DNA of 64,000 bases from Tetrahymena thermophila SB210 (Eukaryota; Ciliophora; Oligohymenophorea; Hymenostomatida; Tetrahymenidae). Each line of letters starts with the position of its first letter. Position 1 is the first letter of the stretch. The notes beneath the pieces are model-generated. The model made no database searches, was not told the DNA's origin, and worked only from the letters and a program-made list of their open reading frames with translations. The translations under genes were made by a program, and so were the position numbers. This document shows, piece after piece, positions 37,758 through 63,222 of this stretch. Location: assembly GCF_000189635.1 (NCBI RefSeq), contig NW_002476180.1, positions 62,001 through 126,000 of the forward strand, given 5' to 3'.

Positions 37758-37769
37758 TATCCAATCAGA
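37758..37769 (+). promoter_or_regulatory. Histone-gene CCAAT element TATCCAATCAGA
   Basis: TATCCAATCAGA lies about 137 bases upstream of the histone H1 ATG. It matches the conserved TATCCAATCARA element that I recall being reported upstream of Tetrahymena histone genes. Position, orientation and exact match make this the best-supported promoter element in the window. It probably takes part in S-phase histone transcription. Confidence 0.75.
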
Positions 37770-37905
37770 TTTCAGATTATTTTTAAGAGAAATTTTTGAA
37801 TTTGATATAAACCCATATCTAACGCGCGATATTATAATCTAATATACAAAATTAAATCGTTAAGAAAAAAACAAGAAAAAAAAACTAAAAAACAAATAAT
37901 ATAAA

Positions 37906-38654
37906 ATGGCTCCCAGAAGTTCAACTTCCAAGTCTGCTACCAGAGAAAAGAAGGACCACAAGAAGGCTCCCATCAAGAAAGCCATCGCCAAGAAGGATAC
38001 TAAGCCTACCCCCACCAAGGGCAAGGCTGCTTCTGCTTCCACCACCCCCGTCAAGAAGGATGTCACCCCCGTCAAGGCTGATACCAAGAAGAAGATCCAC
38101 AAAACCAAAACCATGAAGGAAACCGTCAGCGTAAGAATTTAACGATTTGTTTCTACTATTTTCATTAAATAAATTCAAAATAGAATTTTTAATTACTAAA
38201 TACTTTCTCCTCCTTTGGTTATTTATTGAAGTTTCTACTATTTTTAAGAAACATATTTTAATAGTTCTACACTTTTTTTCTCACTAAAAGAGAGTTAAAA
38301 AGTAGAATGAATGAATTAATACAAATATTATTGGGAAAAACGTTTTATTCATTTTATTGAAAATATCTTTAATTTAAAAATTAGGATGCCAAGAAGACCG
38401 TTCACGCTGCTGCTGGTGATAAGAAGCTCTCTAAAAAGAGACCCGCTAAGGAAGCTGCTAAGAAGGCTATCAACCCTGGTAAGAAGGCTGCTGCTTAACC
38501 CAAGAGCACCAAGAAGGAAGTTAAGAAGGACAATAAGACTGCCAAGAAGGAAACCAAGAAAGATCATAAGCCCGCTAAGAAGGAAGCTAAGAAGGAAACC
38601 AAGCCTGCCAAGAAAGATGCCAAGAAGAGCTCCAAGCCTGCCAAGAAGAACTGA
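37906..38654 (+). CDS. HHO1: Macronuclear linker histone H1
   Basis: Exons 37906-38130 and 38385-38654, separated by a 254-nt intron (GTAAG..TTAG), encode 164 residues. The protein is almost entirely Lys, Ala, Thr, Pro and Ser, with repeats such as KPAKKEAKKETKPAKKDAKK, and has no winged-helix globular domain. That is characteristic of Tetrahymena macronuclear H1, which compacts macronuclear chromatin. Three TPxK sites (Thr35, Thr47, Thr54) fit the known Cdc2-type phosphorylation region that modulates transcription and starvation responses. Codon use is highly biased towards C-ending codons, and a single TAA glutamine occurs (AAAQPK). The CCAAT element upstream supports cell-cycle regulation. 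I recognise it as the T. thermophila protein. Confidence 0.97.
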
Positions 38655-39763
38655 TTTTTTTGTAGTAAAGAAATTCCTCAAAATACTCACATTCACAAGA
38701 GAAGAGACTTGATATGAGCAAGTGATCAAAAGGCTTTAAAGGGAGGTAATTAAAAAAATGAATTCTCTTAGGCTGGAAGAAATCAAGTTCTATACAATAT
38801 TTTCTCAAGTGAAATGTAGAGTAGATGTTAATATAAAATATAATAATAAAAGGGTTATGAATCATCAAAAATGCACACTCAACGAGTGTAAAAATGTATA
38901 TATATCTTCTTAATCATTAAATATATTGGTATATAATAATCAACTTTTACTACTAACAAGAAGCAGATAAATCCTTTATTGACTTAAATTTATTTATGTA
39001 TATGTTCTGCATACAATGAATGTGTATTCCTTGATGATTTGATAGAGTTTATCATTAACAATACTTCCAAATTCTTTATTTATTTTTTATTTATTTATTT
39101 AGTTAGTTATTATGGTTTCTTTTTCTTTGGTGTGCTTGCTTCCCCACATTATTTTGCTTTCTATTTCTTTACTTTTTAATAAATCTATAGAAAGTATCTA
39201 AAACAATTAAAAACGCACACTTTAATCTATTTTAAAATTTACAAACTAAATCTACGTACGATTGAGTACAATTATTTGAATCAATCTTTGCAAATAAATT
39301 AATAAATAAATTATTATGTAGAGATTATTTAATTAAATTCAGATTTTTTATTATTTGTTAATAAATTTTTCAAAAGCAAATTCATTTTTTAATTAATTAA
39401 TTAATTAATTAATTAATTATTAATTTAAACTAAAACCCTTGAGCGGAGTGAGTTGCGCATTAGTATTTTTTTTATTGAGAATTATTTAAAAGTGTTAAAT
39501 AATTAAGCGAAATTACAATGATTTTTTTAGTGATTATCAATCTAAATTGATCCCAATAGAATTAAATTCTAAAACTATCTGTCAATATTTTTCTTTAAAT
39601 TAAAAAGAAAATTCTTTTGTGATTTCTTAATTAGAGACATAATATTTTTAATTTTTTATTAAAATCTAATCAATTTTCTAAATATCAAATATAGGATAGC
39701 TAACTGGTAATCCACTTTGATTCCATATTTATTCAATCAAAAAATATAGAATACAGATAAATA
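38655..39763. other. Intergenic, with TTAA repeat and a GC-richer patch
   Basis: It contains the histone H1 3' UTR and the promoter of the next plus-strand gene. A pure TTAA repeat sits at 39389-39419. It is followed by a short GC-richer stretch, cttgagcggagtgagttgcg at about 39438-39457, which stands out from its surroundings. No coding frame was recognised. Confidence 0.5.
39389..39419. repeat. (TTAA)n microsatellite
   Basis: About eight uninterrupted TTAA units in intergenic DNA upstream of the small cysteine-containing gene. The unit is its own reverse complement, so the tract is palindromic and could extrude a hairpin. Confidence 0.9.
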
Positions 39764-40087
39764 ATGTCAAATTAACAGCAATACGAGTAATAAGTAAAAA
39801 TATTAACCAAATAATATCTCCAAGATACATTATAAGAATGTAAGAAGTGTTGGGATACTGCTATGAAAGATTAATGCAGCTACAATTGCGATTAAGATTA
39901 CATATTATATTTAAGTGGAAAAAGAGTATTAAAGTAAAAATTATAAAATTGCCTCTCTTAACCTGATAAAAATGCAAAATCCTTAGACAAATGTTATGAA
40001 ACTGCCAATAAAGATATTGTTTCCTTATAAAAATTTGTACAAAGAATGAGAAATAATCAATTAGCCATAAGTCCTAAAAGCTCTTGA
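39764..40087 (+). CDS. Small cysteine-containing protein of unknown function
   Basis: Intronless frame of 107 residues (ATG 39764, TGA 40087), rich in Gln encoded by TAA. Six cysteines fall in ECKKCW, QCSYNC (a CX3C pair), NCL and KCY. The segments between them look helical and charged (SLDKCYETANKDIVSLQKFV). No signal peptide or membrane helix was seen. Spaced Cys pairs in a short helical protein recall intermembrane-space proteins of the Tim or CHCH kind, but the spacing (CX2C, then CX3C) does not match twin CX3C or CX9C. Unrecognised; coding status rests on the long TGA-free frame and plausible composition. Confidence 0.6.
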
Positions 40088-40440
40088 AAAGTTATTTTGA
40101 GATATTTTAAGTATTTATTTTACACTAAATCCTAGTAATAATTACAACCTATTAGATAAATAAATATCTTTATTGTTTTTTAGAATAATAGTTACTTAAA
40201 AAGCCATCTTTGCATTGTTTTATATTTAGAAATTAATACTTTTAAGAAAGAAAACTGTAAATAGAATATATACATATATATATATACAAACATTAATATG
40301 ATTGTAAAATAAACTTTTCTTTTATTTTATCTTTCATTTATTTATTTATTTATATCATAAGCTTAAACCAAAAAGTAGTATTTATTTATCACTACAACAT
40401 TCTTTTATTTGGAAAATATAACTGAAAATAATTTATTCAC
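40088..40440. other. Intergenic between convergent genes
   Basis: About 350 bases of A/T-rich DNA with an (AT)n-like tract near 40270-40288 and a TTTA repeat near 40335-40352. Only 3' UTRs are expected. Confidence 0.5.
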
Positions 40441-43400
40441 TCACTTCGAAGTTTTAAATGCTTAAACTAAGTATCTCTAACATTCTTTGAAACGAGGAGA
40501 TTTGTGGCAATTACTTTACATTATATTTTTATCTAATAAGGGAATCTTTTCAAAATACAAACGGGGGAGGAAATAACACTCTACTTTCTCACTTTTAGCT
40601 TTTATTCTTCCGAATCTATTTACATTTAAAGTATTAAACATAAGACTTTCTCCAAAATAATCTCCTTCACTTAGTTTATAATCAAGCTTTTTTATAAAGT
40701 TAATTTTTTTTTTTTAAATTAAAATTAAAATTAGAATAAGAATTAATTAATTATTTTATTTTTTTTAGTTATAATTTTTTATTATCAAAATTAGTTATTT
40801 TATCTGTTTGTTTTGCTTAATATTAAATAAAGAAATATAATTTTATGTATTACCCAACCTGCTGGAGTTTCTAACTCACAAATACCTTCTTTAACAATAT
40901 AAAATCCATTTATTTTTCTTTTTGTAAAGTCTAATTTAGTCATTTTGTTATTCATCCTCTCTGCCACATTCTTTGTTTTTCCTTCATTTTTCTTTAATTC
41001 AATGTATTTTATTTGCTCAGCACATTCTCCATCATTAAATATAATGTCACCTAAATAATTATTTTTGTTATAATTTAAATTAGTATTTAGTGAAAAGTTT
41101 CATTAATACCTCTGTTAAATGTTTGGGTTGTGATAATTTCAAATGCAAGACGGTAGAGTGTAAGCTCAGAAACTCCATTAAATATAGGTATTTGCTAGAT
41201 GTAATTTAATATTTATATTTTAATTAAATTAAATGAATGCTTTTTCCACAGATCTACAAAAGTGCTTTTAGGGAATGACAAAGTTTCAACTTCTGTTTGT
41301 GATGCGAACCAAATATCAGGGATTGTACACAAACCATTGTCTTTTTCTTCGAAGCCGATTATATCACCTTCACTATAGTAAGAGATAATATCAGGATGCT
41401 CAAGATTTTTTATATGGTCTTGAACTAAAATATGACCAGCTACAATAACAAGAACTTCGTTTGCTTTTGGGAATATAATTTTCTTTTTAGGAACAATGTT
41501 AAATTTCATTGTAGTTAGAATTTTCTTTAAATCGTTCTCTTCAAATCTGTTAAAGAAAGAAAGTAATTTAAGACGTTTGATTAAGAAATGAATATCAACC
41601 CACTGGTTATCCTCCCAAAAGGGCTGTAAAGCTGGAATATATTCAGAAGAAGTTATAATTTCACTGACTAAAGAATTAAATTCGCAAAACACTTTAGGTT
41701 CTACTTTAACGTTTAGGTCACGTTTATTTTTAAAAATCATTGCAAACATAAGGTGCATAAGCATATTGAAATTCGAAGGGCAAGTATACTCAATAAATTG
41801 CTAATAATCATTAGCTGCACTTTCTAATTTTTCTAATTTTTTGTTGCAAACTGCTCTTAAGTACAAATGTTCCTAGGAAGGCTCACTTGAGCATCTGATG
41901 ACCTGGTCTATATTTTCGAAACAACTCTCGTAATTTCCAAGCTTATAGTTGCATATAGCTAATCCGTATTTGGCTTAGTTAGGACTTTCATTTAATTTCA
42001 AAGCTACATCAAACCATTTTTTGCTTGTTTCATATTACCCTAAATACTCATATAAACACCCCAAGTTAAAAATTGATTTTCCATGAAGTTTATCATAAAG
42101 TAAGGTTTCTTTTAAGCATTAAACAGCTTGCATGTATGAATTTTTTTAAATTCTGCGAACAGCTTTCCAAAATGAAAATTCTACTTCAGTCATTAGATTT
42201 TTTTCTATTTTAGGAACTTCTGTAATGCACTCCACATGTTTATCAAAACTCTTTCTTTAATTTGTATCGATAATAAGTGTCTGATTATTATTTAAATTGA
42301 AGTTATTTTATTATTATTACTACTACTACTGCTATTGTTGTTAATTAGGATTTCCATTATTAAAGCTATTATTTAAACTATTATTTTATTTTTCATTTAA
42401 ACGAGGAGAAGTTTATGTCAGGCAAGTCTATCCTTTAATCTTAAACTTATCTTCATCTTTCAAAAGCATCTCAATTCTAGGAATTAAACCATGATAAACT
42501 GTTCTCAAATTTTCTCCAGAATTTTCGTTTTTCTTGGCATTGGTTGAAGAATTATTCATAAAAGTGCTATCGTTTTATTTAGAAAAATTAATATACGCAC
42601 CATTTACTCTTTACTTTAAGGTAGGAACTAAATTAATATTTCTATTAAGCTCATTAGTACTCAAATTATTGTTTCCTCCTTGTGTATTTTAATTATATGA
42701 GATATCGATTGAGCTGTTAAAGGGTTAGCCATTGCGTTTTATATTTGAGTTCTGTATATTGAAAGATTTATTGTTATCATTTGATGAAACATTTCTTTCT
42801 GCTGCATTCTGAGACAAATGAAAGCTTTTATTATTTCCTCTCAATCTAGTATGATTAAGTTATAAATGATCACTATTGGATTAATTTTGCTTATTTCTTT
42901 ATATAGGAGATTGTGAATCTTTTTTATCGATGTTTTTCAAAAATTATGAAGTATCTTTAGCAGCCTAATCATCATATGTATCCAAAAATTAACTATTTTC
43001 AAAACTTGAATTCTGGATTTTGCTTGAAATATTTTTCCAAACATTATTTTCTCTAACAACAATAGATGTTCCATTTATAGATTTAGGCTATAATTCTTTA
43101 TAACGGAAAGTTATGTTTTTTTCTGCTTCCCTTGGTCTCCTAGTAGGAAGTTGATGATGCGGTATATTATTAATCTTAGATCTATCTTCAAAATAAAGAA
43201 GTTTTTTTTCAAAATCTCTTTCTTTAGTCTTTAGCCACTTTCTATAACGCACTCTGAAGTCATTGAGTAACTTATCGGGTACGTTGAATTTCTTGTATGG
43301 ATCTAAGAAACTAATAATAGGTCTGTTTTAACTTTAAGCAATCCAATCATCTAATGCTTCTTCAGTAATTCCAATACGATTATTAGGCAACTAACTACCT

Positions 43401-43771
43401 CCCCTTTTTTAAATAACTTCATTTTGTTTATATGAGTCTCTACTTCCTCCTTTACTACTTTATCTTTTTGCGCTTTGAGCAGTATTACCTCTTGATTAAG
43501 GATTATCATTATCTAAATCTTTAGGAGGAGGAAGTTAAACACCGTTAAAATTACTTAAAGGCTAGCTTAAAGGCTTTAAAATATGAGACTGATCATTAAA
43601 TTCGTAGTTATGGCTACAAAATGCGTGATGATTACATATCTCCTAACCTTCTGAGTTGAATTAGTACTTAATTGTAGATCTATTAATTGGTGGTAGTCTA
43701 TCTTGAAATCTATTTTCATCAGCTTTAATTATCGGTGAAATTTGCATATCAGCGACCTGCTGTTGGCTCAT
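40441..43771 (-). CDS. TPR and tandem cyclic-nucleotide-binding domain protein
   Basis: Three exons (43771-41110, 41050-40854, 40686-40441) close to 1034 residues. Residues 1-470 are a disordered N-terminal half rich in Asn, Ser, Gln and Arg. A run of 12 Gln (477-488) follows. Residues ~520-670 form TPR-like repeats (SIFNLGCLYEYLGQYETSKK; AKYGLAICNYKLGNYESCFE). The C-terminal third holds two cNMP-binding-like units. The first includes LKLLSFFNRFEENDLKKILT and SEGDIIGFEEKDNG. The second starts ELTLYRLAFEIITTQTFNRG, continues FYIVKEGICELETPAG and ends LSEGDYFGESLMFN. GDYFGE resembles the phosphate-binding cassette, but the usual downstream RAA Arg is not evident, so ligand binding is uncertain. 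No kinase or channel domain accompanies these units. Similar TPR-cNBD proteins are common in ciliates; function unknown. Confidence 0.85.
42308..42343 (-). repeat. Polyglutamine tract written with four different codons
   Basis: Twelve consecutive glutamine codons in the TPR/cNMP gene: TAA, two CAA, TAG, CAG, three TAG and four TAA, followed by Asn codons. It lies at residues 477-488, in the linker between the disordered half and the TPR repeats. Confidence 0.9.
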
Positions 43772-44475
43772 AGTGATAGCTATTTATATTCTTTACTGAA
43801 TGAATTGATGAAAAGTAGATTATCTCTTTAAAATAAAATTTATGCTTGTTTTATATAAGCAATTTTAAGGAATAAGTTAGTAATAATATTTATTCTTACT
43901 CTTTAATGCTTCCTTTGATTTCTTTACCAAATTCGTATTAACTTTAATATTGAAAATAATTAATTCATATAATTTAACAAGCAAAATCACAATTAGTTTT
44001 ATCAGTATTTTTAATGAATAACTATAATACTATCTGCTAATAATCAATGAAAATTTTTAATTATTGAACAAAACTATATTTTTCAATCTAATTTACAATA
44101 AGCAAAAAATCAACTAAATATTTAAGGTCAAACTCAGAAAAATTATGATTAAATTTAATCCATTCAATCAAAGAATTATAAAGTATGCCTATTTCTCTCT
44201 TTTACAAGGTAACAATGTTAAATTCATTCAAATATTAAGATTGTAAATTAATAAAACAAATATCTCCAAATAGCCATCAAATTAAAACTAATTACTGAAT
44301 CACTAACGTAATTAGTCACAAAACTATAAAAAATAGTTTATAATAAATACCAAAAAAAACAGTAAGTAAACAAATAAATAAATAAATTCAAATCATTTTA
44401 TTTTAAATTGATTAATAAAAAAAATTAAAAAATTTAATATAAATCTTAAACAGTTTTATTAAAACAAATTTATTT
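43772..44475. other. Intergenic upstream of the TPR/cNMP gene
   Basis: About 700 bases of A/T-rich DNA between two minus-strand genes: the promoter of the TPR/cNMP gene and the 3' UTR of the Swi5-like gene. Nothing was recognised. Confidence 0.5.
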
Positions 44476-45283
44476 TCATATTTCATTATTATCCAATCCA
44501 TATTCTGAAAATACTTATTTAGTTGTTAGGTTTCTTATATTTGCTATCCTTTAAAATATACTGCCTGCTACTTCCTTTATTTATATTTAAAAATTCAAAT
44601 AAATTCTAATAATAAGTGCGCGAAATGAAAAAATATAATTGTTAAAATAGATATTAAATTTCTAAATAAAGAAAGATTCTAATAGTTTAATTCTAATTAA
44701 ATAGATATTTGTTTGTTTTAATAATTGTTGATTGATTGTACCTTCATCTCATTTCTCTCTTGGATTTTTTTTAATTTATCACTCTTTGTATTTAAGCTTT
44801 TCTTTTTTTCCTCTAGAAGCGACTTAGCAGCTATTAACTCAGCTTTATATTCTTATAGCTATTCATCGTTCAAATCCTCATGCTTTTTAGGCTCAAACTT
44901 TTTTATTTGTTAATCTACTTATTAATGAATTTCCTAATCTTAGTTTTCCTAAGACTAATTATTTTCTTATGAGTCCATTGGATGAATCTCTGTTTCTATA
45001 TATTCCATCCTAACACTGTCACATTTTACTTTTTTTGTCAAGAAAATACTTATAATATTTCTATAAAATGCAAAATATTAATTAATTAAACTGTTATCAT
45101 GAATCATGAATGAATAGATTTAGTATCAATAATTTACATCTTATTTTATTCATTCAATGAATCTATTATTTCCTTCAGTTTTTAGCTATCTACATCACTA
45201 AAGTGCTCTTGGAGCTACTTAAAAGAAAGTGGTTCTCTTAATTTTTATAGATATTCACTAATTTATTTCTATTAATCTTCCAT
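44476..45283 (-). CDS. SWI5: Swi5-like DNA recombination/repair protein
   Basis: Three exons (45283-45138, 45060-44742, 44661-44476) close to 216 residues. The last 34 residues include IKEVAGSIFQRIANIRNLTT and KQVFSEYGLDNNEI. This fits the conserved Swi5 C-terminal pattern (IKDxGQxL...A...K.V...YGL), including the spacing from IK to YGL. It is preceded by a coiled coil (LNDEQLQEYKAELIAAKSLL, KSDKLKKIQERNEMK), as in Swi5. Swi5 works with Sfr1/Mei5 as a mediator of Rad51/Dmc1 strand exchange in meiosis and repair. The N-terminal ~70 residues add a winged-helix-like segment (LREPLSFKQLQEHFSDVDSQ) and FLTKKVKCDSVRMEY. That extra part is shared with the C-terminal region of the giant gene at 53.4-62.0 kb. 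The final acceptor was chosen because it closes the frame; the first ~25 residues of exon 3 are unusually hydrophobic, so the true splice site may differ. Confidence 0.6.
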
Positions 45284-46031: not shown

Positions 46032-46838
46032 TCATATAATTTGTGCTTGTGTTCTATAGAGAAGTCTTCTAGAATTACCGAATCCACCCATACTTCTATG
46101 GATAACTCTAATATTGTCCCAGATAACAACATCACCCATTTCCCATCTGTGACTGTATATTTTGTAGACCTATTCAATTTCTGGAATAATATCTCTTGAA
46201 TTCAAGATTGTACCGTCTTTCAGTACAACATCATTCAAGTTGTTATAGGTAATGTTCAGTATTTTTTTACCAGAAATAGGATGAGTTGCTATGGCTGGGT
46301 GATGAGCTTCGGGATAGTGCTCCTCAGGCTTAGCACTTGAAAAATCAGAAATGTTTTAGCTTCTGATAATACTTTTAGCTCCTTCAAGCTTTTCTCTTAA
46401 ATCTGCAGGCATATCGTTCAAAATTTATTCAGAATCCACGTAACCAGTTTGACCTCCTACTTGAGCTATTTCTTTAGGAGTAAGAATGCTTAAGATGAAG
46501 TTCTCTCCTGGTTGTCTAAAGTCTCCGTCCTTATGCCAATATTCTGCATCCTTAGAATTAGGCTTGACTGTATCGTCTAATCTAACATTTCCTACCCTAA
46601 CAATAGCTGGATACTCAGGTTCTCTATTATCAAATGCATAGAATGAAGGTAGAATAACAAGCTTTCCCCATCTTTCAGTGAATGCTATCTGTTATTATGC
46701 TGTCAGATTTTGATTTTTAATGCATATAACACCATGAGTCCATAAAGCTTGTTAAATGTTTTCAAATTCTTGATCGGTGAGATTACTCAGATCTACTCCA
46801 TTAATAACGAATCCAAGTTGAGATTTACCTTCTTACAT
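46032..46838 (-). CDS. TauD/TfdA-family 2-oxoglutarate dioxygenase, copy A
   Basis: Intronless, 268 residues (ATG 46838, TGA 46032), the normal TauD length. The iron ligands are visible: His and Asp in EYWHKDGDF and the distal His in WDNIRVIHRSM. The Arg that binds 2-oxoglutarate is in GGFGNSRRLLYRTQ. The N-terminal blocks GFVINGVDL, ALWTHGVICIKNQ and FTERWGKLVILP follow the family order. TauD/TfdA enzymes are Fe(II)/2-oxoglutarate hydroxylases acting on taurine, sulfonates, alkyl sulfates or related small acids; the substrate here is unknown. There is no obvious targeting sequence, so a cytosolic location is likely. It is first of three tandem paralogues. Confidence 0.93.
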
Positions 46839-48929
46839 TTTTTTTATAATTTTATTTTTTTTAAATTTTTAATTTTTTTATGATTATAAAATAAATAAAA
46901 AAGATTTGACATAAATTTAAATTAAAAATATCTAGTATCTAATTGCTTATATGGTAATATAATTCTTTTATGTTATTAAGTTTTTTCTTACTCCTGTGAT
47001 TTAGTGATTATAATCTTACAGATTATTTTTTCTTTCTTTCTTTCGTTTTTAATAAAATTATGAAATTCACAAAAATTTTCTTATGTATTACAAAACAGAT
47101 TTTCCCTCTATTAAATTTTGGAGTTATTTCAAAAAAATAAAGAAGTTATTTCACTTTAAGTTTTTAAATATCAAACAATAATATTTTTCAACAATTTTTT
47201 GTTGATGTTAAAAATAAAAATTTACAAATTCCAATCAATTTAAAATATTTAGCAAAAAAAAATGAATATAAAAGTATATTTCTGGATTTTAATGAATATT
47301 GATGAAAAATGAACTCAATAAACATTAAAAAAAAAAATCTATTTATCTCCATGTATTTAGAATAGAGGAAAAAATTATTAAGATTTTTTCCACAAAAAAT
47401 CTGAATCAAAATATCAAAATTATACCAATTTCTATAAATCAAGTCAGCAAAGATAATTTTAATATTTTCGTTTTTTCGATCAGCAATTAATTGAAATAAA
47501 ATCAAAACCTCAATTCCTTTAGAAAATATATATTGAACAAATTTATTAATTTTGAAGGATAGAAAAGGATTTCAATGATTGCGATTAACAAAATATCGTC
47601 CAAAATAATACCTATTTTTAATTTTTTTTATTTGATTTTATAATATATTAATGAAATGCCTGCCCTCAAAAGTACATAAAATTTTATATAATTATTTATA
47701 TTAGCCTATTTTTACATGTTTTTGAAATTTAAACTCATTTCTATTATGAAATTTCATAAGAAGCTTAAAAATCAAAAAAAGTATTAAACGTCATTATATC
47801 TTCTTAACTGAATTACATAAATTTTTATAACATAAATCCTTTTATAATTAATATATATTTGCAATAAATTTAAATTATTTTTTTAATGATTCAGATCAAA
47901 GAATACTTCATCATTTTCAAAAAGGATCATACAACAACAAAGTGGAAAATTGATTGTATTTATACGTAATTTAAAAAATTAATAAAGTGCTTCATAGTTA
48001 CTTCGTTTTTAATTAAAATTGATGTAATTAAAAACAACATTAGAAAATTTGTTACATCAACTTATTTTTTAATAAAATTTGGTCTAAATCAGTAAATGGT
48101 AAATAAAAAAGTATTGCTATAAATATATATTTCTATAATTAATTTAAGATAAATATTAGAATTTACTTAAAATTGATTTATCCTTAAAACCTTAGATTAT
48201 TTACATTCAAAGTGCCTCTTTATTTTAAAATAATTTATTTTTTAATTATTATTTTACAGATTTCCTTATTACAAATTTCATGTTTACCATAGCTCAATAT
48301 ATAGTATTTTTCTCAGTTTTATTGAAGTAAACAAAAAAAAATTGGTGGGTTGTTTTTTTGTTTTTGTTATTTTTCTTGAGGATTGGCATTATTTTCAACT
48401 AAAGAAATACTGTAGTTATTTCTCTAACGGTGATGAAAAAACTTAGTTATAATAGATAATTATGTCGTATTAATAAGTATTAACATAATTTTAAAAAATT
48501 AATAACTTTCTACTAGCTAATTTATTTATCTTGTAAGGATAATGTTTAAAAACAAAAAAAACTATTTACGTTAATCAATTTATATTAAAGATTTTTCAAT
48601 TATTTGGTAAAAACGACGTGAATAATATTATTGTTCAAATAGACAATTTTCTTATCTTTGTTTAAATTATATTTTTTTTTTCTTTCGAAAATTATAAAAA
48701 ATATTGATTGAGAAAGGAAATTTTACGAAATTGATATGAAAAAGCAAAAAATAATTAATTGCTTTTAATTTTTGTTTTTATAAACAAAAAAACTAAACAG
48801 TAAAAATATATAATCAAAGTATTGTATCATAAATAAATAAATAATATTTATATTGAATTGAATAGAGATTAACTATTTTTATTTTACTATATCAATCAAT
48901 ATTTTGTTGATTTTTTATGATATTTTTAT
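46839..48929. other. Intergenic between dioxygenase copies A and B
   Basis: About 2.1 kb, very A/T-rich, separating two tandem paralogues. A frame of 105 residues at 47188-47505 (minus) is open even under the standard code, but its Phe/Ile/Lys/Asn composition is what A/T-rich DNA gives by chance. No remnant of a fourth dioxygenase was recognised. Confidence 0.5.
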
Positions 48930-49826
48930 TCAATATAAGATTTATGCTTGTGTTCTTATAAGCAATCTTCTATTATTACCAAATCCACCCATACTTTTAT
49001 GAATAACTCTAATATTGTCCCAAATTACAACATCACCCATTTCCCATTAATGGCTATATATTTTATAAGTTTTTTCAATTTCAGAAATGAATTCTTTTGA
49101 GCTCTTAACTGTGCCATCTTTAAAAAGTATATCGTTTTCAACATTTTAACAAATGTTAAAGATCTTTCTTCCAGTTATAGGATGAGATAAAAAGACTGGG
49201 TGAAATGCTTCAGGATAGTGTTCATTTTCTTTGAAATGCTAAAAATCGCCAATTGTTTAAGATCTGATGATGATTTGGGCATCTTAAAGCATTTCTTTCA
49301 GGTTTTCAGGCAAGTCTCTATATACTTATTCTGAGCAAACAAAACCTGTTTAGCCACCAACTTAAGCTATTTCATATGGGATAAGAATACTTATGAAGAA
49401 ATTTTCACCTGGCTTTTTGAAGTCTCCATCTTTATGCCAGTATTCAGTATCACTACAATTTTCTTTTATAGATCCATCGATATTTATATTGCCTACCCTA
49501 ACAATAGCTGGTTAATTTGGATCTCTTTTTGTATATGCTTGTTAAATAGGAAGGATCATAAGTTTCCCCCACTTTTGAGTGAAAGCTATTTATTAGTCCA
49601 TCGTTAATTTTTAATTTTTTATGCAAATAACTCCATGAGTCCATAAGGCATCTTTAATATCTTCAAATTATTTTGTTGTTAAATTATTAACATCTACATC
49701 ATTAATAGTATGCCCAAGCTTATACATTTCTTATGGATCCTATTATATCCTAGGAGCTGCTAATGAAATGGCTTGTTTTCTGAGATTTTAATAACTAAAT
49801 CTAGAAAGTTAAATAAAACGTCTCAT
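48930..49826 (-). CDS. TauD/TfdA-family dioxygenase, copy B, with mitochondrial-type leader
   Basis: Intronless, 298 residues (ATG 49826, TGA 48930). The catalytic body matches copies A and C: EYWHKDGDF, GDVVIWDNIRVIHKS and GGFGNNRRLLIRTQ hold the iron and 2-oxoglutarate residues. It differs in having about 33 extra N-terminal residues (MRRFIQLSRFSYQNLRKQAI, then SLAAPRIQQDP). This leader is rich in Arg, Ser and Gln and free of acidic residues until Asp31, typical of a mitochondrial presequence. The Met after the leader (MYKLGHTI) aligns with the start of the other copies. The leader frame is open and continuous with the body, so I chose the upstream ATG. Probable mitochondrial paralogue (inference). 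Confidence 0.92.
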
Positions 49827-50591
49827 TTTTTGATGAATTATAACTGAGTAGATTGTGAGTTTTTTTTTTCAAAAATGCAGTTTTAATATAGAGATTTAAT
49901 CCTATACGCACACAAAAATTATTTAATTATCAATATATGATTACTCATAAATAATTTCTTTGAATATTGCATGATCATGTGGTTAATATTAAAAATGAAT
50001 TAAACAAAGAGAATAAAAAAAATATATTTCAAAATAAAAACTATTTCCATTAAAATTAATTTTTTTTAATTGAAATAATTTTAAATTAAAATTAATATTT
50101 TAATTTTTAAAAATAATTTACTTAATAAATCAATTTAAATTTTTTATTTAAACTGTTGCTACTTTAACTAGATCAAGATTATTTTTATCAAACGATATCA
50201 AAACATGTCATTTCTTAATTAATTAAGCAAATGATTTATTGATTGATATAATTGTGATGAATATTAGAAATAATTTTACAATTAAAATGAAAATATATTC
50301 ATATTTTTAAATATTTCGTTTTTAAAATTTTAGAAGAGTAGTAAAACGGCTGTTTCTAAAACAATTGAGCAATATAATATCAAATAACATAGTAGTAATT
50401 TACATAAAGAGTTATCAAATAACTTAATATTTTTATGATATATATTATATAATATCTCAAAATAAAACATAAAACATAAATAAATACTAATCATAAATTT
50501 ATTTGTGATTTTGAAATTAAAAAATCAATTATTATAGATTAATTCACATCTTTTAATAATTTTTTTTGAGTAACTTAAAAAACTTTAATTC
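49827..50591. other. Intergenic between dioxygenase copies B and C
   Basis: About 765 bases of A/T-rich DNA that should include the promoter of copy B and the 3' UTR of copy C. No motif was recognised. Confidence 0.5.
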
Positions 50592-51401
50592 TCAATATTA
50601 AATTTATGCTTATGTTCTGAAAAGAAGTCTTCTGTTGTTTCCAAAACCTCCCATACTTCTATGGATAACTCTAATATTATCCCAAATTACTACATCGCCC
50701 ATTTCCCATTGATGTCCATGAATCTTGTAAGAGTTTTCTATTTCAGGATTAATATCCTTTGAATCAATTCTGTTTCCGTCTTTTAGGATGACGTCATTTT
50801 AATTTTTTTAAGTTATGTTAAATACTTTTCTGCCAGTAATTGGATGAGGAGCAAAAACAGGATGATGGGCTTCAGGCAAATGTTCTTCAGGCTTGGCATC
50901 TTTAAAATCTGAAATAGTCTATGTTCTTACTATAATTTGAGCACCTTCTAATTTTTCTTTAATGTTTTCAGGTAAATCTTTTAAAACTTATTCAGAGCAA
51001 GCGTATCCCGTTTATCCTCCAACCTAAGCAATCTCCTTAGGTACTAAAATACTTATTATAAAGTTTTCTCCAGGCTATCTAAAGTTTCCATCTTTGTGCC
51101 AATACTCAGCATCTTTTGAATTAGGCTTAACACTTCCATCTAGTCTTACATTTCCTACTCTAACAATAGCTGGATATTGAGGGTCTCTATTATCAAAAGC
51201 ATAGTAAGGGGGAAGAATTACCAATTTACCCCATTTTTCTGTAAATTCAATCTATTACTGAGTATCTAAGCTTTAATTTTTTATACATATCATACCATGT
51301 GTCCAAAGAGCTTCTTGAATGTTTTTGAATTGCTCCTCTGTCAAATTATTTAAGTCAACTCCAGTTATAGTGTATCCAAGTTAAGATTTTACTTCAGACA
51401 T
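50592..51401 (-). CDS. TauD/TfdA-family dioxygenase, copy C
   Basis: Intronless, 269 residues (ATG 51401, TGA 50592). Iron-binding His and Asp lie in EYWHKDGNF and the distal His in WDNIRVIHRSM; the 2-oxoglutarate Arg is in GNNRRLLFRTQ. Its sequence is closer to copy A than to B over the middle of the protein (FRQPGENFI, GQTGYACSEQ, KPEEHLPEAHHP). It has no N-terminal extension, so probably cytosolic. All catalytic residues are intact in the three copies, so none looks like a pseudogene. Confidence 0.93.
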
Positions 51402-52208
51402 TTCTATTTTTTTATATATTATTCTTGTTAAATTTTTTTTATTTTATTAAATATAATTATAAAATATAAAATATGAGAAATTTTTTTGTTCTTAAATTGG
51501 ATACCATTCAAATTCAAGAAAAAATAAATAAGATCTTTGAAATTGGTTTTATTAATATTTTGATGATAGGTATGTAAATCTATTTATAACGTACTAAAAT
51601 GCGTTTGTGAAAATTGTAAATTATTAAAATAATTTGATTAGAATTTCAGATAACTATTCTAACCAACACCAAAATATTAATCCAAATTTAGATTCAAGCT
51701 TTTTTATTTTATGGATTAAAAAGGATATGTTACTTTTCAATATTTTTGGGAAAATTTAATTTACAAACTCAAACAAAATTAGTTAAATTATTCAATTTAT
51801 TTTTAACCAAATTAACATTAATAATAAGAATTTTATTTTTCAACCATTTTTTAAAAAAAAATCACTCTTTTTATTCATATTTCTAAGATTAAATTCTTAT
51901 TTATTATCACGAGCAAAAATTAGTTAAACAAATATAAAAAGTATATCTTAATAATACATTTAATAATCTTTCATAAATGATATATTTTTTATCTATAAAT
52001 TTACAAACTACTTCCAAAAATTTCATTTTTTTTGTTATTTTTTTTAAATGGAATATTTAAAAATTTGATATTTTTTTAGTTTTATTTAAATATTTTTAAA
52101 ACTTTTAGAAGATCTTATAAAGGTTAGTTTTTAAACTAATATAATAAAATTTTAAAAATATTCATCTTGATCTATATAAATTTGTTGCTACATTTTTATT
52201 ATTGATAA

Positions 52209-53385: not shown

Positions 53386-56300
53386 TCAAAATATATAAAT
53401 ATTGTGAAGTAATATTTAATCTTCCAAATTAATTTAGTAAAAGCTGCTTTCTTAACTCATTCTTAGTCTTATATACCATATGTTTATTTAATTTAATTAA
53501 TATTTTAGTTTTTTATTGTGGCTAATCTATTAAATAAGTTATTTCCAATATTCTTTAAATAATAAAATATAATAATTTAATATTTGAATATATTTAATAA
53601 TAAAATTATTTACCATTAATTCAATGAGCTATTCTTTCTTTTAATTTATTTAACTCATTGCATCTAATTACTTTTTCTTTTGCTCTAGGTACGCAAAATG
53701 AATACTTAAAGACTTTTTATAAGAGGACAACTCTTCTTCTTAGAGTATATTCTAATCTTTAAATTCAAAAGTTTTATCATCAACCTCTACATTTTCTTCA
53801 TTTTTATTTTGTATATTATCTTCTTAATTAGAATCACATGTACCCAAATTATTTAAAATGTGCTAATCTGTATCATAATATTCCATTCTTACACTGTGGT
53901 ATTTAAGTTTTTTATTTAAAAACATCTAAACTGTATTCCTATTTTAATTATATAATTATGTAAAAATAAAATTTTAATTAAATTATTTACAATTTCTTTT
54001 GTTGTTTCATCTCTTCTATAGTAGCCATTATTTCTTAGGGTTTATGATAAGGGAATCTGCTTTATATCATTTAAAAAGAGCAAGGTTCTCTCAAATTTAA
54101 CAAAAATTTATACAGTCTTTATTCTTCATCTTCATCAATAACATCTAGAGGGTGTTTTTATTTTTCTAGATTATATTCTTCCTCCTCATCATCATATATT
54201 GTAATTCTGCTTTGTAAATTAAAAGGATATATATTGCTAAGCTTTGACTCACCTGCTAACTATTCATAATCTTGTATTTTATTCTTTTCACTTTCAGAAA
54301 ATTCATTTAACAAATTAACTTTAATACGCTCATTTCTTTCATTATTCAAACTACTTTTATGCAATTATTCTTTTGTTTCATAATTCATTTTGTTAATACT
54401 TGATATTTTAGAAGAAATGCTTTGTTTCGATATCGACTTGCTTTAATTTAGCTTACTAACAGATTTTCTATCTACTTAACAATTATTTTCATTATTTAAT
54501 TGGTTTTCTTTGTCAAGATTTATTTCAGAAAGTAATTTCTTAATCGAAGATTTAGCAGCACTTCTTCTTGCAGATATTTTTTTAAGATGCTAGTAAAGCA
54601 GATTGTTATCTGTAATATCATCTAAATTATCATTTATTATGCTGATAGATTCATTTAGGTTTTCTTGTTCATACTTTTTGATAATTTCGATATAATTAAC
54701 TTTTTCGCCATTTTTTAAGCATAGTTGTTCCTTTTAGTCGTTATTTTCAGCTTATTCATGACTATGATCTTCTATTAATTCTTCATTTTCTTAACAGTTT
54801 GTTTTTTCTAAATTGTTTTCTATCTCATTACAATTTTATTCTTATCCTTAATCATTTTCAGGTTATTCTTGTTCAACCAAAATTTTTTATACACTATTTT
54901 TTATTAATTATTATCCTTAATCTTGATCATCAATTATGCCACTAGCAATATCTATAAAGTTATCATCATTTTGCTATTTTTTTATTGGACTAACATAAAA
55001 TCCATTTTCAAATATTTGTTCTTGGGGAGAGGGTTTGGATTTTTCATTTTCAATACAATCTAATATTTTTGAATTATTAAGAGACTCTATTTCATCTTCT
55101 AACTTTGATTTGCAACTAAACTTTTGCTCTTCTCTAGCTAATTCTTAGTTATCAATTAAACAATCTTATAAATTATTAATTTCAGGTGAATTTAATTCGT
55201 TTTATAATTATTATGTTTGCAATTGATTTTTATTTTGATGATAAAGCTAGTTATCTAAATCTTCATTTTAAATTTATTTTTTTGCACTTTCGTTTAAATC
55301 TTATACGAATATTTAATCTTAATCACAAGGTTTTTCTTACTATTGTTATTCTAATAGATTGTCTTTGCATTCAGTTTAAATTTAATTTTATTCTTCTTAT
55401 ATTTCCTCTTGAATGTTTTATTACTGTTCATTCAAACCAATTTCTTGTTAAAACTATTAATCTTCATTAATAACTTAAATATTTTATTCTAATAGTTATT
55501 AAATATTAGATGACACAACATCCTATTTTTCAAGTTGATCTTTCGATGAAACCACTTAATCAGGGTTAATATTTTAATTTTCTTATATATTATTATTTTA
55601 TTCTAATATATTATTTTCATTTTAAATAGATTTATTTGTATCACATAATTAATCAAGAGTCTATTCAATTTATTGATCGCCTTCTTTTAAATCAAAAGAA
55701 TTATTTTATATTTCTTAAATAGAATTAGTGGCCTGATAATCATCAGTTTTGTCATCATTCATTTTTTCAATTTCTTATCCTTAAAATTAGCTATCTATTA
55801 ATTATGTTAACTTTTAATCTTAATTTTCTTAAGTTATATTTTCATCTTACATTAAATGTTCATTTTAATGTAATATTTAGATATCATTTGCTGAACACAT
55901 GGTATTCAACTATGTTTCTTAGAGAATTTCATATTAGTCTTACTAATTGCTATCTATAATATTATTTTATTCATTAATAATAATATTTTTATCTATATTT
56001 TACTATTCTTTTATTAATTCTTCTTGTTCATTTAATTATTCAATTTAAATGTTTTCTTACGCCACAATTATATCAGCCATATTTTATTTTTGATCTTAAA
56101 TTTAAATCTATTCATTGATTTCTAATTATTCTTATTGACTCTCTTTTAAGGGTAAGGAGTTTTAATTAACTTATTATATTAAAATAACTTAATCTTTTTA
56201 TTCATTTTCTTCAATTTTTTATTAGTTATATTATATTTAACTTAATAATTCTGATTAAACATAATGCTATTCAGTAGTATCATCTTTGATAATCTCATTA

Positions 56301-59300
56301 TTTAAACTTTAATGAGTATATTCAATATCATTTAAGTTTAATCTATCATTTTATGTAGTTTCTTAATTATCGTTATCTTGCTCTTCTGTTTGTAACTTAT
56401 TTTCATCTAGGCTACTTTTATTAATTTCAGTTTCATTAGGTATATTTTCAGTCTAAATTTATTAATGTTCTTATTCTATATGGAGATTATGTAAAATATC
56501 CTCTTAGTTTTAAATCTATTTCTGATTTATTTATTCTTCTTCAGAATTAATAGTAATAATTTACATATCCTATGTTTATTAGCTATTTTATAGAATTTCA
56601 TTTTAATTAATTTCTTCGTCACTAATTTTTTGTGCAGTTTAATTTTCATCAAAATTTTAATTTTCAAATAATTAACTTTAATTAAACTCTTATATACTCA
56701 CTTCAAGCTGCTATTTATGGTTTGTAAGTTCATTTATAATATTTTATTCTTCATTTTGATTCATATCTGCCAACTCTTTTTAAATTTATGAAGAATTCAA
56801 TTCTTATAAGTGTTATTGTTATTCTTTTTCTTCAATTAATTAATTATTTTATGATTAATGTTTTAGATCTATTTCTTAGTTATCATCTATTTCTTACATT
56901 TTACTATTTATTATTTATTCTTGCTAGTTATCTTTAGTTTGATTCATATCTATTAATTCTTGTTAAATTTATGAACAATTTTATTCTTAAATTTACTATA
57001 TTTCTTCCTCAAGTTATTTTTCATCTTCTTATTAATTATTTTAACTGACTTCTAAATTATCATCTATTTCTTAAATATTATTATTTAATTACTAATGTAT
57101 TTCCTCTTACAAGTTATCTTAGGTTGTATTTTGATGTTCATATTATTTAGTTTGATTAAGAGTATCTTCTAAGTTAACATTTGTTATTAGTTAAATATCA
57201 TTTTCTTTTTAATGAGAGCTGTCTTAATCAGTTATATCTATTTAAATTTCTTATTTGTTTTAATTTTCAGTATTAATATTTTATTCTTCTTCTTCCAAAA
57301 TAATTTTTTCTTCCTAATTTTGTTCAAGCATACTTTAATCATTATTGCTTTAAGTATTGTGATTATTTTCTGAGGCATTTTCAGTTTAAGTTTTAGAGAA
57401 GAATTAATCATTTTATGATTAATGACTTTGATCGATTTCTTAATTATTATCTATTTCTTGCATTTTACTATTTACTATTTATTCTTGCTAGTTATCTTTA
57501 GTTTGATTAATATCTATTAATTCTTGTTAAATTTAAGAACAATTTTATTCTTAAATTTACTAAATTTCTTCTTCAAGTTATTTTTCATCTTCTTATTAAT
57601 TATTTTAACTAACTTCTAAATTATCATTTATTTCTTAAATATTAGTATTTAATTACTAATGCATTTCCTCTTACTAGTTATCTTAGGTTGTATTTTGATG
57701 TTCATAAATTTCTTATTTGTTTTAATTTTCAGTACTAATATTTTATTCTTCTTCCTAAACAATTTTTTCTTCCAAATTTTGTTCAAGCATACTTGAGTTA
57801 TGATTGTTTTAAGTATTGTGATTATTTTCTGAGGCTATTTATTAATCCTCTGTTAATTAACTTTGCGCTTTGATTGATTGATTTATATTAGAATCTACTA
57901 ACTCTGTTTCATTTTCTTTCAATTAATTTTCAGATTAAGTTTGAGAGAATAATTAATCATTAAGTTAAGCATTAGCCTCTTCACTTTATTCTAATTATTA
58001 AGCATCTAACTAATTAAAATCTCCTTTTATTATTTCCTAATTATTTTAGTTTTCTTGTAACTAAATATCTTTATTCTCTGCTTTATCTAATTGCTCTTAA
58101 TTTAAAACTTCATTAATTTCATTTTAGTTTTAATAATTATTTTGTATAGCCAAGTTCTCCTCTTATAAATTAATTTATTCAGATTTAACATTTAAAAGTT
58201 ATTATTATTAATTTGCTTCTATAATTTATTGGTTTTATTGTTGTTAATCTTACTAAATATCAGCCTTTTATTCTTAATTATTTTAATTCTCGTCTAATTC
58301 CATTGAAGTATTATCATTTTATTATTAAATAAATTCTTCTTGAATATTTTCTACTGGCTATTATACTACATCTTATTATGACTATCTATCAGTTTGGTTT
58401 TCACTATCTTCTTCTACTTCTATTTCTTCAATAATTTATGTCTGTTTCAAGTTATCATCTTAGTTAGTTTCTTCTAATTAGATATTTTATTTTAAACTAA
58501 GTTCTGAAGCTAAATTATTTCTTTATAATTCTTCAGATTGACTGTCTTCTTATTAAATTACTTCAACATGATTTTCGTTATTATTTAATTAGTTAGGTTA
58601 TTCTATTATTTATTCAACAAGATTTTGCTAAGATTCCATTTTATTTGGTGTTTCAATTATTTAAAGCTCATCAATTTATTGTTCAAAACACTCTTTATGC
58701 AATACACTATTCATTTGATCATATTCCTAACTTAAAACTTAATTACTAATATTTTATACTTCAGATTGCTATTTCTCTTAGCTAATTACATCATTTTAAT
58801 CTTCGGATGATTTTAGTTATTAAGGTTTTTCAAGTAATTATTAGTCAGTTTCTGTGTCTATTTGAATTTAATTTTAAATATTTAAAAGGTTTGTTTCATT
58901 AATGACTTATTCTTAAATTTACTATTCTTACTATTTATTAAGAATATGTTAATTATTTAAATCAGTTTATTAGTTAACCAATTCATCTTATAAATAAATA
59001 CTTTAATCAATTTCATTTTAAATTGTTTCTTCTGTTCTTTCTTCTTTTGGTATATCTTTATTTTCAGTGATTTCTGAACCATCAAATTTATGATTTTACT
59101 AATTGTCTAAAGTAATTTGTTCTGCTATTTCTTTCGTTGACATATCTCTTTCTTCTGTCATTTCTAAGTCATCAGATTGATTGCTTTACTTTTTCTCTAA
59201 AGACTCTAAATTATTTTATTATTAAGATAAAATTTATTGCATGTTTTCAAATTAATCTTTCAATTCATTATCATTGTATATAACTTATTTAAGTTCCAAC

Positions 59301-61999
59301 TAATTTTCTTAATTTTGCTAAAAATTATTATTTTAAGCAGAACTTTATTCAGATTATGAAATATCAGAATAATCTTACAAAATAGTTTAGTTGTTATTAT
59401 TTTCTAAATTGCGTTGTTTCTATTTTTCTAGGTCATCTGCTGATATATCTATTTTTTCTTTATCTTCTAAATTTTGTAAATCATTTTATAATTACTTTTA
59501 ATTACTTTCATTTATTTTATCATTTTATTAAATGTCAGCAAATTTGTTTTATTCAACAGTTTAATCAGTAATTTCATTTAGCAAAACTTATGAATTATCT
59601 ATTTCAACAGCCTATAATATTTCTTCATTTGATTTTAAATAAGTTTCTTTGCTTTCTGTTATATTTTATAATATTTCTTGCTTTTATGATTAATTTTCAT
59701 TGTTATTTGGAATGGTTTATTATTAAATGTATTCTTAACTATCTTAATTATTTTACTAATTGATTTAAACTCCTTAAAGATTTTCAGATACATAAGCTTG
59801 GATGATATTACACTCTATTTACATTTCCTCCTAAACTAATTATTTGTTTTCTTGAATATTAATTTATTCTATATTTTATTTTTATGGAGATAAAACGTTA
59901 TTATCTGTTTATTCGCTTATATTTTCTATTTCTTTCTCTATCTACATAGTTTAATCTGTTTCATGCTAATTTTGAATTTCTTCTATTTGATGAACTTAAT
60001 TTTCTTAAAAACTATTGTCCAATTTATTTTCATGAGAACTTAATATATTACTTTATTAATTGACATTATTTGTAATTATATCAAGATTGTCTTGTTATTA
60101 TCTCTAAGGACTAGCCAAGTTTTTAGAGAAATTAATTTATTCTTCACTCAAATTAATAATTTGATCTTAAATTTACTCATTAACTTAAATATTTAAAGAT
60201 TGATTTTATAAGGTTTCTTATTATTCTACATCATTTTATTAAGTATTAATCAAAAAATCATTCTAAGATAGTTAGCTAACCACATTTTAGTCTTATGATT
60301 ATATTTCTAAATTTTCATTGCTTTAAATAGTATTTTAATTATCTGCTTGGTCTATAGTTTCTTCTATTTGTATTTAATCTTTATTTTATTAGATCTCTTG
60401 AAAGGAAGAGTTAATATTATTTAAATCTTCTACTTCTTATTAAACTAAATTTAAATTTTTATTTGATTCTTCGTCATCATGCTTCATTTCGTTTTCATCT
60501 TTTCTTGACTCATTTTGTTAGTCATCTTCCATTTCTATTTAAACAACTTAGCCTGTGTTATCAATAAATTTATCCTGAGTATTATTTTCATTCTGAATGT
60601 AATTTTAATTTGTTTCTATTTTTTGAATTTATTATTCAGTTATTTCTTTTTATTTTGAATTGCTTTAACTTAAATTGCATAAATCACTTTCATTTTATAA
60701 TATTTCCTCTTAAATTTATTTTAAAGGTGATTCAATTATTTATTTTTGCTCAGTAATTTCAGTATCTTTTTCCATTTAAGCAATGTTTTCTTTTTCTATA
60801 TTTCTTTCATCAGAAAACTAATTTTAATCTAAATTTTATGTTTCTTCACATTTATCACTTTCAAGACTTTATTCAGTTTGCTTAGAAAGATTTTATTCAA
60901 AACCTGTGATATCAACTTCACTGTTAGGAGGCTAATTATTTGATAAGTTTTATTAATTATTATTTTACTATTCTGAAGTTATTTTCTCCTCACAATTTTG
61001 CAAATGATTAACATCTTAATTACTTTCTTCTTAAAAATCATTTAATTCCTAAGAATTTTCTTAATTTTTTTCTTCTGATTTACGATTATGTACCGTTTCA
61101 CTATTTTATTCTTATTCATAATCACTAAAATTAATTTTTTCTTCTAAAGTTGTTTTCATATTTTATAAATCTTGACTTTAATGTTATAATTATTCAAATA
61201 AAGAGCTATCTTCTTGGTTTTATATTTATTAACCAGAATCTTTTGATTCAATTAGTTTTGTTTCAAATTAGCTTTAATTTGGTTCAATATTTATATTTGA
61301 ATTATTTTCTTCTACTTTTTCATTAGTATTTTCACAATTAATTTATTCAACATTATTTTTTTCAATTATTTGTATCTGATTTTATTCTTCATTATTTAGT
61401 TTACCATTTTAAATCTCTACATCATATTAGACTACTTAAATTGTTTGTTCTTAGCTTGAATTACTTGTATTTAATGTTGTATTGATATCGTTTTCTATCT
61501 CAACTTGGTCATTTTTAGATTATAAACCAATTTACTATACTTCTAACTAAACAGCATCTTGCGTATTTTTTTCTTATTAATTTACCACATATGCTTCCTG
61601 TTGTCCTTATTTTTCATCCCTATTATAAATAAATTTATCTTAAATTTATAACAAAAAATATAAAATATACATAGTTTTATCTTATTTCAATGTAGAATCA
61701 CTATCTTCAGAATGAATCATAACTTCTGTTATTCCTTATTAAAAATCATGAGTAATTTACTATTATTCCTTAATTTCATTTGAAGAAATTATCTAGTCCT
61801 ATTCTTCTTCCATCTATGTTTGATTTTGTTCATTTTATTTGTCTGCAATTTAGTCATTTGAATCAGCTTCAAGATGTGTATTTTAATTATTTTCACTTTT
61901 TTATGTGCTATCTTACAAAAAAACTAAATTTGGTATATCTTCTCTACTAAAATTAGGTTATTCTTAAGATTCCTAGATGTCTTAATTCTCGATATCCAT
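53386..61999 (-). CDS. Giant Gln/Glu/Asn-rich protein with C-terminal module shared with the Swi5-like protein
   Basis: The start at 61999 (MDIENQDIQESQEQPNFSRE) opens one exon of 8009 nt (to 53991) without a TGA. Exon 2 runs 53938-53614. A third exon or read-through continues in frame to TGA at 53386. The protein is about 2,800 residues. Nearly all of it is low complexity, dominated by Gln, Glu, Asn, Ser and Ile, with many Gln from TAA/TAG. An internal duplication lies at 56.8-57.8 kb. A basic patch (LKKISARRSAAKSSIKKLLS) lies near 54.57 kb. The C-terminal ~190 residues are different: LYKFLLNLREPCSFQMIQSR, FLNKKLKYHSVRMEY, then a charged coiled coil (LEQKKKQLDAMSQI). These match the first two exons of the Swi5-like gene, with introns at the same places and phases. 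A degenerate Swi5-like tail may follow (NELRKQLLLNQFG, in another frame). Function unknown; the 3' end is uncertain. Confidence 0.75.
56847..57376 (-). repeat. Internal tandem duplication, unit A
   Basis: About 530 bases inside the giant gene that recur as unit B 564 bases further on (57411-57835). The first ~290 bases are around 90% identical by eye. Unit A has a segment of about 105 bases, near 57141-57245, that is absent from B, a multiple of three that keeps the frame. Confidence 0.85.
57411..57835 (-). repeat. Internal tandem duplication, unit B
   Basis: Second copy of the unit at 56847-57376 in the giant gene. It lacks an in-frame block of about 35 codons relative to unit A. Both copies read through in the same frame of the giant protein. 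Confidence 0.85.
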
Positions 62000-62505: not shown

Positions 62506-63222
62506 ATGTAAAAAGACCTAAGCGATAACTGGATGCCTTTAGAAAGCAATCCTGATGTGATTAATGATTATATCCAAAAAATAGGTTTCAATATAGAAAA
62601 GTATTCTTTTTAGGATTTATATGACTCAGATGAGTAATTCCTTAAGGATATGAGTGAAAATACTTTAGCAGCTTTATTGATATTCCCATTGGACGAAAAT
62701 GCTAGTGATGAACATAAAAAAGAGATTGAATAGATAAAAGAAAAAGGTTAATTCATAAATGAAAAGGTATATTATATGAAATAATACGCTGAAAATGCTT
62801 GCGGGACTATAGCTATTATGCACGCTGCTATGAATTTAATGTAAAAAGCTCCAGGTATGATTCGCGATAATTCAATCTTACACAATTTCTTCAAATAAAC
62901 TGAAAAAATGACTCCTGAATAAAGGGCTGATTATTTTATGAATGACAAATAGCTTAAAGATGAACATGTAGAAGCTGTCCATTAAGGAGAAACTGAAGTT
63001 GATCCAGAAGACGATAACGTTTTACATCATTTTATTTGCTTAGTACCAATAGAAGGTCATCTTTATGAGTTAGATGGTTGTAAACCCTTTCCAATTAACC
63101 ATGGGGAAACAACACCTAAAACACTTCTCCCTGATATTTACAAAGTATTTTAAAAATTTTTGTCAAAGAGTTAAAACCAGTACTCGTTCAGCATCTTATT
63201 ACTTTAAAAATTTGATAACTGA
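62506..63222 (+). CDS. Ubiquitin carboxyl-terminal hydrolase (UCH-L1/L3 type)
   Basis: Intronless, 238 residues (ATG 62506, TGA 63222), close to UCH-L3 length. The family signature is complete: oxyanion-hole Gln and nucleophile Cys in [19 protein letters not shown], catalytic His in [11 protein letters not shown] and Asp in [15 protein letters not shown]. The N-terminus starts [20 protein letters not shown], matching the family's opening. It is a cysteine protease that removes small adducts from the C-terminus of ubiquitin and processes ubiquitin precursors. The residues before the catalytic His ([14 protein letters not shown]) form the crossover loop region. Several Gln codons are TAA/TAG, including the one in the C-terminal LLLQKFDN. 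No targeting sequence was seen. Confidence 0.95.

Follow-up and report, generated by a model that had tools for sequence, protein, structure and literature searches.

Tetrahymena thermophila encodes Swi5 paralogs with an added winged-helix-like domain, two of them carrying very long tails

The window analysed here comprises 64,000 nucleotides of the Tetrahymena thermophila SB210 genome and contains, both on the minus strand, two genes designated A and B, which share a protein module with a third gene, designated C, on another contig. In line with that species, a 104-residue TERT segment of the genome aligns over 102 residues, 101 of them identical, to chains named telomerase reverse transcriptase in the PDB (2r4g, 6d6v; T. 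thermophila). All reading used the ciliate code, in which TAA and TAG encode Gln, and the splicing of the three genes was inferred from the sequence. Gene A starts with the ATG at 61999 and consists largely of a giant exon (53991..61999) encoding a Gln/Asn/Glu-rich tail and then, in the same frame, a winged-helix (WH)-like three-helix part. Intron 1 (53939..53990; phase 2, 52 nt, GTAAAT...AAAATAG) is followed by exon 2 (53614..53938), which encodes a basic stretch (MFLNKKLKYHSVRMEY), an acidic linker and a coiled coil, and intron 2 (53553..53613; phase 0, 61 nt, GTAAAT...TTTAAAG) by the last exon (53457..53552), which encodes 31 residues of a Swi5-like C-terminal cap and the terminal TGA. This last exon extends the module beyond the two exons that an earlier note on this DNA had assigned to it. 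It was found by scanning 24 acceptors, the best of which gave a BLOSUM62 local score of 57 to the last exon of gene B, compared with 21 for the runner-up and a maximum of 39 for shuffled targets (n=500); a previous candidate at about 53480 (frame TKNELRKQ...) was rejected, as it has no properly placed stop.

With its three exons joined, the gene A protein has 2,809 residues, and the tail, read without further splicing, accounts for the 2,619 residues upstream of the module, or 93% of the protein (Q 19.3%, N 14.1%, E 13.9%). The frame from 62017 to 53991 contains no TGA in 2,675 codons, whereas the two remaining frames contain 23 and 212, and the giant low-complexity frame is thus continuous with the module, as had been claimed. 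An in-frame GT...AG stretch of 51 nt at 61620-61670 is likely a small intron, judging from its sequence; it was kept in the model, and its removal would give 2,792 residues. In the last ~200 residues of the tail (~54140-54740, minus), a basic stretch (KKISARRSAAKSSIKK) is followed by an acidic one right before the WH-like part, and a similar basic-then-acidic run occurs in gene C, farther from its module. Upstream of gene A on the opposite strand, a ubiquitin C-terminal hydrolase-like gene (~62507-63222, plus; recognized by eye from an NACGT motif) starts ~500 bases from the gene A ATG.

Gene B, spanning 44476-45283, encodes a protein of only 187 residues. Its exon 1 (45138..45283) encodes the three-helix core of the WH-like domain, exon 2 (44742..45060) a basic stretch, a linker and the Swi5 coiled coil, and the last exon (44476..44574) the Swi5 C-terminal cap and a TGA; together with exon 2, this last exon matches the Pfam Swi5 family. 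Intron 1 (45061..45137) has phase 2 and 77 nt, and intron 2 (44575..44741) has phase 0 and 167 nt, far more than the 61 nt of intron 2 in both A and C. The donor of this second intron reads GTACAA; the remaining five introns of the three genes start with GTAA or GTAT. A continuation of gene B into the 1,071-residue frame at 40952-44167 was considered and rejected, since the stop of B at 44476 precedes that frame, which by eye looks to be a separate TPR/cyclic-nucleotide-binding-like gene. Between B and A lie three similar dioxygenase genes in tandem on the minus strand (46032-47066, 48930-49868 and 50592-51791), which we take from their motifs to be TauD/TfdA-like and which indicate a history of local duplication in this interval.

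To find further copies, the genome (101 Mb, 445 contigs) was searched in six frames with B as the query, using 155 residues and leaving out the last exon. This gave four matches at E 10: two to B itself, one to exon 2 of A (1.7e-8) and one to a locus on contig C429 (5.4e-11). There, at 35325-38881 on the plus strand, the three module exons lie behind a Q-rich tail, and this gene C encodes 1,146 residues, 953 of them tail, with introns of 55 and 61 nt and no TGA in the 1,059 codons of its frame. Exon 1 of A is absent from the matches to B, so that its homology rests on the alignments and shuffles described below. At the same threshold, C as a query returned C and B and not A, and A returned A and B and not C; the tie between A and C therefore runs through B and the shuffle tests. 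It should be noted that a family size of three is a lower bound, as the genome search scores the best candidates only. Among viral contigs (600 pattern matches) and prokaryote contigs (265), no relative was confirmed, which is unsurprising for a gene of a eukaryote. Gene C is adjoined by a tandem pair of divergent tubulin-like genes whose C-termini are acidic and rich in Asp and Tyr (C429 ~39300-43400, minus; by eye).

The modules of A and B share ~185 residues, from the three-helix core through the basic stretch, acidic linker and coiled coil to the cap. Their alignment has 61/184 identical positions and a local score of 286, compared with 56.7 +/- 8.9 for shuffled sequences, none of which reached 286 in 1000 trials; likewise, 0/1000 shuffles reached the scores of the B–C (61/182 identical) and A–C (48/183 identical) alignments. 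When the exons of the three genes were compared one by one, 0/2000 shuffles reached the observed score in any of the nine exon pairs, including exon 1 (score 83) and exon 2 (score 147) of A and B; both cross-exon control pairs remained at shuffle level. The basic stretch, taken as the first 25 residues of exon 2, scores 72 between A and B, compared with 15.7 for shuffles (0/2000). The last exons encode 31, 32 and 31 residues in A, B and C, respectively, and all three genes have a phase-2 first intron and a phase-0 second intron, each in the identical alignment column. As judged by these alignments and intron positions, the three modules are paralogs by common descent.

The earlier note had claimed a module shared by A and B with identical intron positions, and both points were confirmed, the two modules lying at the coordinates it gave. 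It placed the first cut after KKL in A and KM in B; the position holds, and the KM is an unspliced reading, since the spliced codon of B is AT|A and encodes I. The homology of the nearby pair also stands, although not as a purely local affair: C lies on another contig and is as near to B as A is, so that local duplication of B cannot by itself account for the family.

Family membership was assessed with the Pfam Swi5 profile (PF07061, gathering cut-off 22.1 bits). The Swi5 part of B, that is, the coiled coil with the last exon, scores 61.3 bits (E 9.3e-17) and the whole B protein 56.1 bits; C scores 38.7 bits on its Swi5 part and 35.1 on its module, all above the cut-off. By their profile scores, B and C are thus members of the Swi5 family, and the proposal that the neighbour of the giant gene encodes a real Swi5 is borne out. 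The corresponding segment of A reaches 14.8 bits (E 0.03), below the cut-off, and a Pfam scan of the whole A module returned no row of any family. This segment is degenerate, and the Swi5 label of A is therefore one by descent and not by profile: on the sequence comparisons, A is a Swi5 paralog tied to the family solely through its paralogs. The suggestion that A carries a Swi5-type recombination module accordingly stands with respect to ancestry and fails with respect to the profile; moreover, it covers the coiled coil and not the WH-like domain ahead of it, which makes the module more than a Swi5. In a genome search with PF07061, the sole match was the last exon of B (25.8 bits) and C was missed, indicating that family searches under-count here. 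At a position where S. pombe Swi5 has YNE, B and C carry NE and A has IE. A PDB search with a whole-module profile gave no match at E 10, and with a profile of the Swi5 part S. pombe Swi5 ranked second of six without significance (E 0.39). The rows from NCBIfam were far below their cut-offs (RecX for B, 16.1 of 253 bits; LapG for A, 13 of 320) and were taken as chance.

The first half of the module is likely a winged helix, as judged from structure prediction and sequence. AlphaFold2 models exon 1 of B, from a two-row alignment with the exon of A as second row, as helices 2-13, 21-27 and 33-47 with a mean pLDDT of 86.6, and this model has the three-helix core expected of a winged helix. Exon 2 of B modelled alone gives a 41-residue helix (65-105, the coiled coil) and no strand, with pLDDT <50 at 2-6 and 9-33; the segment that should form the wing, FL[TNP]K[KY][VLA]K[CY]..S[VA]R[MI][ED]Y, shows strong conservation (A–B score 72 vs 15.7 over 25 residues), but no wing is formed in this exon-2-only model. 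All winged-helix matches in Pfam are below cut-off. For B, three of the six Pfam rows at E 10 are winged-helix families (TFIIE_beta, 1.3e-4; TBPIP/Hop2, 0.038; MCM4_WHD, 0.068), the sole row for the WH part of A is RNA_pol_Rpc34 (E 0.0031), and the sole row for that of C is DUF6365 (E 0.11), with no winged-helix family. A PDB search with a WH-part profile returned 42 rows, the best being bromodomains (E 0.07) and none being named a winged helix.

Judged by composition, both long tails are presumably disordered. Neither contains a Pfam domain at E 0.01, and a comparison of the two by BLASTP with a low-complexity filter gave nothing better than E 8.0. ATM/ATR-type SQ/TQ clusters were considered and show no enrichment (52 vs 53.9 expected in A, 21 vs 21.6 in C). 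Q-rich proteins are reported to be massively expanded in ciliates with reassigned stop codons (PMC10942620), and the two Gln-rich tails, which occur in a ciliate that reassigns TAA and TAG, resemble that expansion; as a difference, the tail is here joined to a recombination-type module, and the main text of that article does not include Swi5. Given this expansion, a long tail by itself surprises less than the WH-like domain does. The fusion of a Swi5-related module to a giant low-complexity tail, which the earlier note had called unusual, is supported by the open frame, and it is not unique, as the 953-residue Q-rich tail of C demonstrates.

Compared with the known Swi5/Sae3 proteins (S. pombe Swi5–Sfr1, S. 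cerevisiae Sae3–Mei5), the Tetrahymena copies have the same coiled coil and C-terminal cap, and the NE[IM][KR] pattern of the S. pombe YNEIR motif is kept as NEMK in B and C. They differ in the N-terminal WH-like domain and acidic linker, in the number of paralogs, at least three, and in the tails of 953 (C) and ~2,600 residues (A), S. pombe Swi5 being given as 85 residues long in PMC4402518. The likeness to Sfr1/Mei5 is by analogy only and consists of a long disordered N-terminal part ahead of the Swi5-pairing coiled coil at the C-terminus; unlike Sfr1/Mei5, A and C are Swi5 paralogs, and their tails are far longer. No Sfr1/Mei5 (PF10376) match was found in this genome, nor in any of 14 control genomes, which makes that search uninformative, and the Pfam scans of the three modules gave no PF10376 row.

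Several other readings of these genes have to be weighed. That the similarity of A and B reflects convergence of coiled coils and low-complexity sequence might be suspected from exon 2, much of which consists of coiled coil or acidic linker, types of sequence that often look alike by chance; yet the non-coiled parts match as well (exon 1, 83; start of exon 2, 72; 0/2000 shuffles each) with nothing in the cross-exon controls, and two introns have a common position and phase in all three genes, so that we regard convergence as barely credible and the duplication proposed earlier as upheld. A gene-model artefact, with the module at 53.5-54.1 kb being a separate small gene or the product of an internal start, would fit the in-frame Met ~82 residues upstream of the A module and the lack of a Pfam domain in the tail. 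However, tail and WH helices share one TGA-free frame and the tail–module architecture recurs in C, and we consider such an artefact improbable. Even less probable, in our estimation, is that the three genes are diverged Hop2 or Mnd1 and not Swi5. They have the layout of Hop2–Mnd1 (WH, coiled-coil rod, C-terminal cap), and B matches TBPIP/Hop2 weakly, as noted above; unlike Hop2, B remains below the TBPIP cut-off (PF07106, 14.4 of 22.8 bits), for which A and C have no row, whereas B and C exceed that of Swi5. The genome moreover contains two Hop2 loci (C108, C208; three more rows fall below cut-off) and two Mnd1 loci (C127, C327) above cut-off, in agreement with the two homologs of each reported for T. 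thermophila (PMC10136221), and A, B and C are therefore not those genes. Alignment with hhalign to the Hop2 pair of this genome gave no significant result, either with the WH part (probability 2%, E 0.021) or with the whole module (0.7%, E 0.077). An intron shared with Hop2 was considered as a sign of common origin and rejected: the C108 gene has a phase-0 intron at another codon and the C208 gene none there.

A more serious alternative concerns A in particular, namely that it has drifted away from recombination, its WH and coiled coil forming a dimerization unit for chromatin, transcription or a nuclear scaffold, and its tail being the main worker. A is the farthest of the three from the Swi5 profile (14.8 bits vs 61.3 for B and 38.7 for C) and mostly tail, and among the weak WH matches, the best ones for B and for A are to transcription factors (TFIIE beta, Rpc34). 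On the other hand, its cap has retained the same length and stop position as in B and C, and the basic stretch shared with B is strongly kept (72 vs 15.7), which, at the level of sequence, suggests constraint on the module; we therefore hold this drift of A to be possible but somewhat doubtful. The reading that we prefer, to which we would give about even chances, is that A, B and C are WH-Swi5 recombinase accessory paralogs, and that in this ciliate a paralog with a tail takes the place of Sfr1.

How such WH-Swi5 paralogs might work is suggested by the known complexes. Swi5 forms a parallel heterodimer with its Sfr1/Mei5 partner and stimulates Rad51 or Dmc1. Swi5–Sfr1 and Hop2–Mnd1 are described as kinked coiled-coil rods, for which a position in the groove of the recombinase filament was proposed (PMC4402518). 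According to the same source, Hop2–Mnd1 has a WH pair binding duplex DNA, for which the Sfr1 N-terminal domain might be the equivalent, and Kang et al. found Hop2 and Mnd1 to match Swi5 by HHpred and to have a similar rod shape; the Sfr1 N-terminus is reported to be disordered and to bind Rad51 (PMC7093153). A WH-Swi5 would combine the rod with a candidate for duplex binding. By analogy, the coiled coils of the Tetrahymena proteins would form parallel pairs, between B and A and/or C, after the pattern of Swi5 with Sfr1 and Hop2 with Mnd1; as B has no tail and the other two have one, the simplest arrangement is that B pairs with either of them. The resulting rod would sit in the Rad51/Dmc1 filament groove, the target duplex may be held by the WH-like domains, and the two tails may recruit or concentrate the recombinase in the way that Sfr1 does with its disordered N-terminal half. 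The pairing, the binding of DNA and of recombinase, and the role of the tails are all putative and drawn from these systems.

In the searched portions of the open-licence PMC literature, neither a winged-helix Swi5 nor a Tetrahymena Swi5 was found. PMC2488364 makes no mention of Swi5, Sae3 or Mei5, and a 2021 review of Tetrahymena meiosis lists HOP2, MND1 and BIME2 in a passage of its Table 1 and is not among the six papers that contain both 'Tetrahymena' and 'Swi5'. Against that literature, a Swi5 with an added WH-like domain, twice with a very long tail, would be new. A bolder interpretation, which we think unlikely but worth stating, is that WH-Swi5 is a surviving intermediate from a common WH-rod-cap helper of Swi5 and Hop2/Mnd1, the WH having been lost in most lineages and kept by ciliates; the Swi5–Sfr1 complex would here be a complex of two Swi5 paralogs, with the giant tail of either A or C serving as the functional Sfr1 half.

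The three genes provide candidate Rad51/Dmc1 helpers for Tetrahymena, a model of meiosis, and the presence of long tails on two of them suggests that Swi5 itself became the base on which the recruiting half was rebuilt. A Swi5 bearing its own WH-like domain is a prediction of a shared origin of Swi5 and Hop2–Mnd1 and makes that question testable; WH-Swi5 may thus show the relation between two ancient families of DNA-repair helpers.
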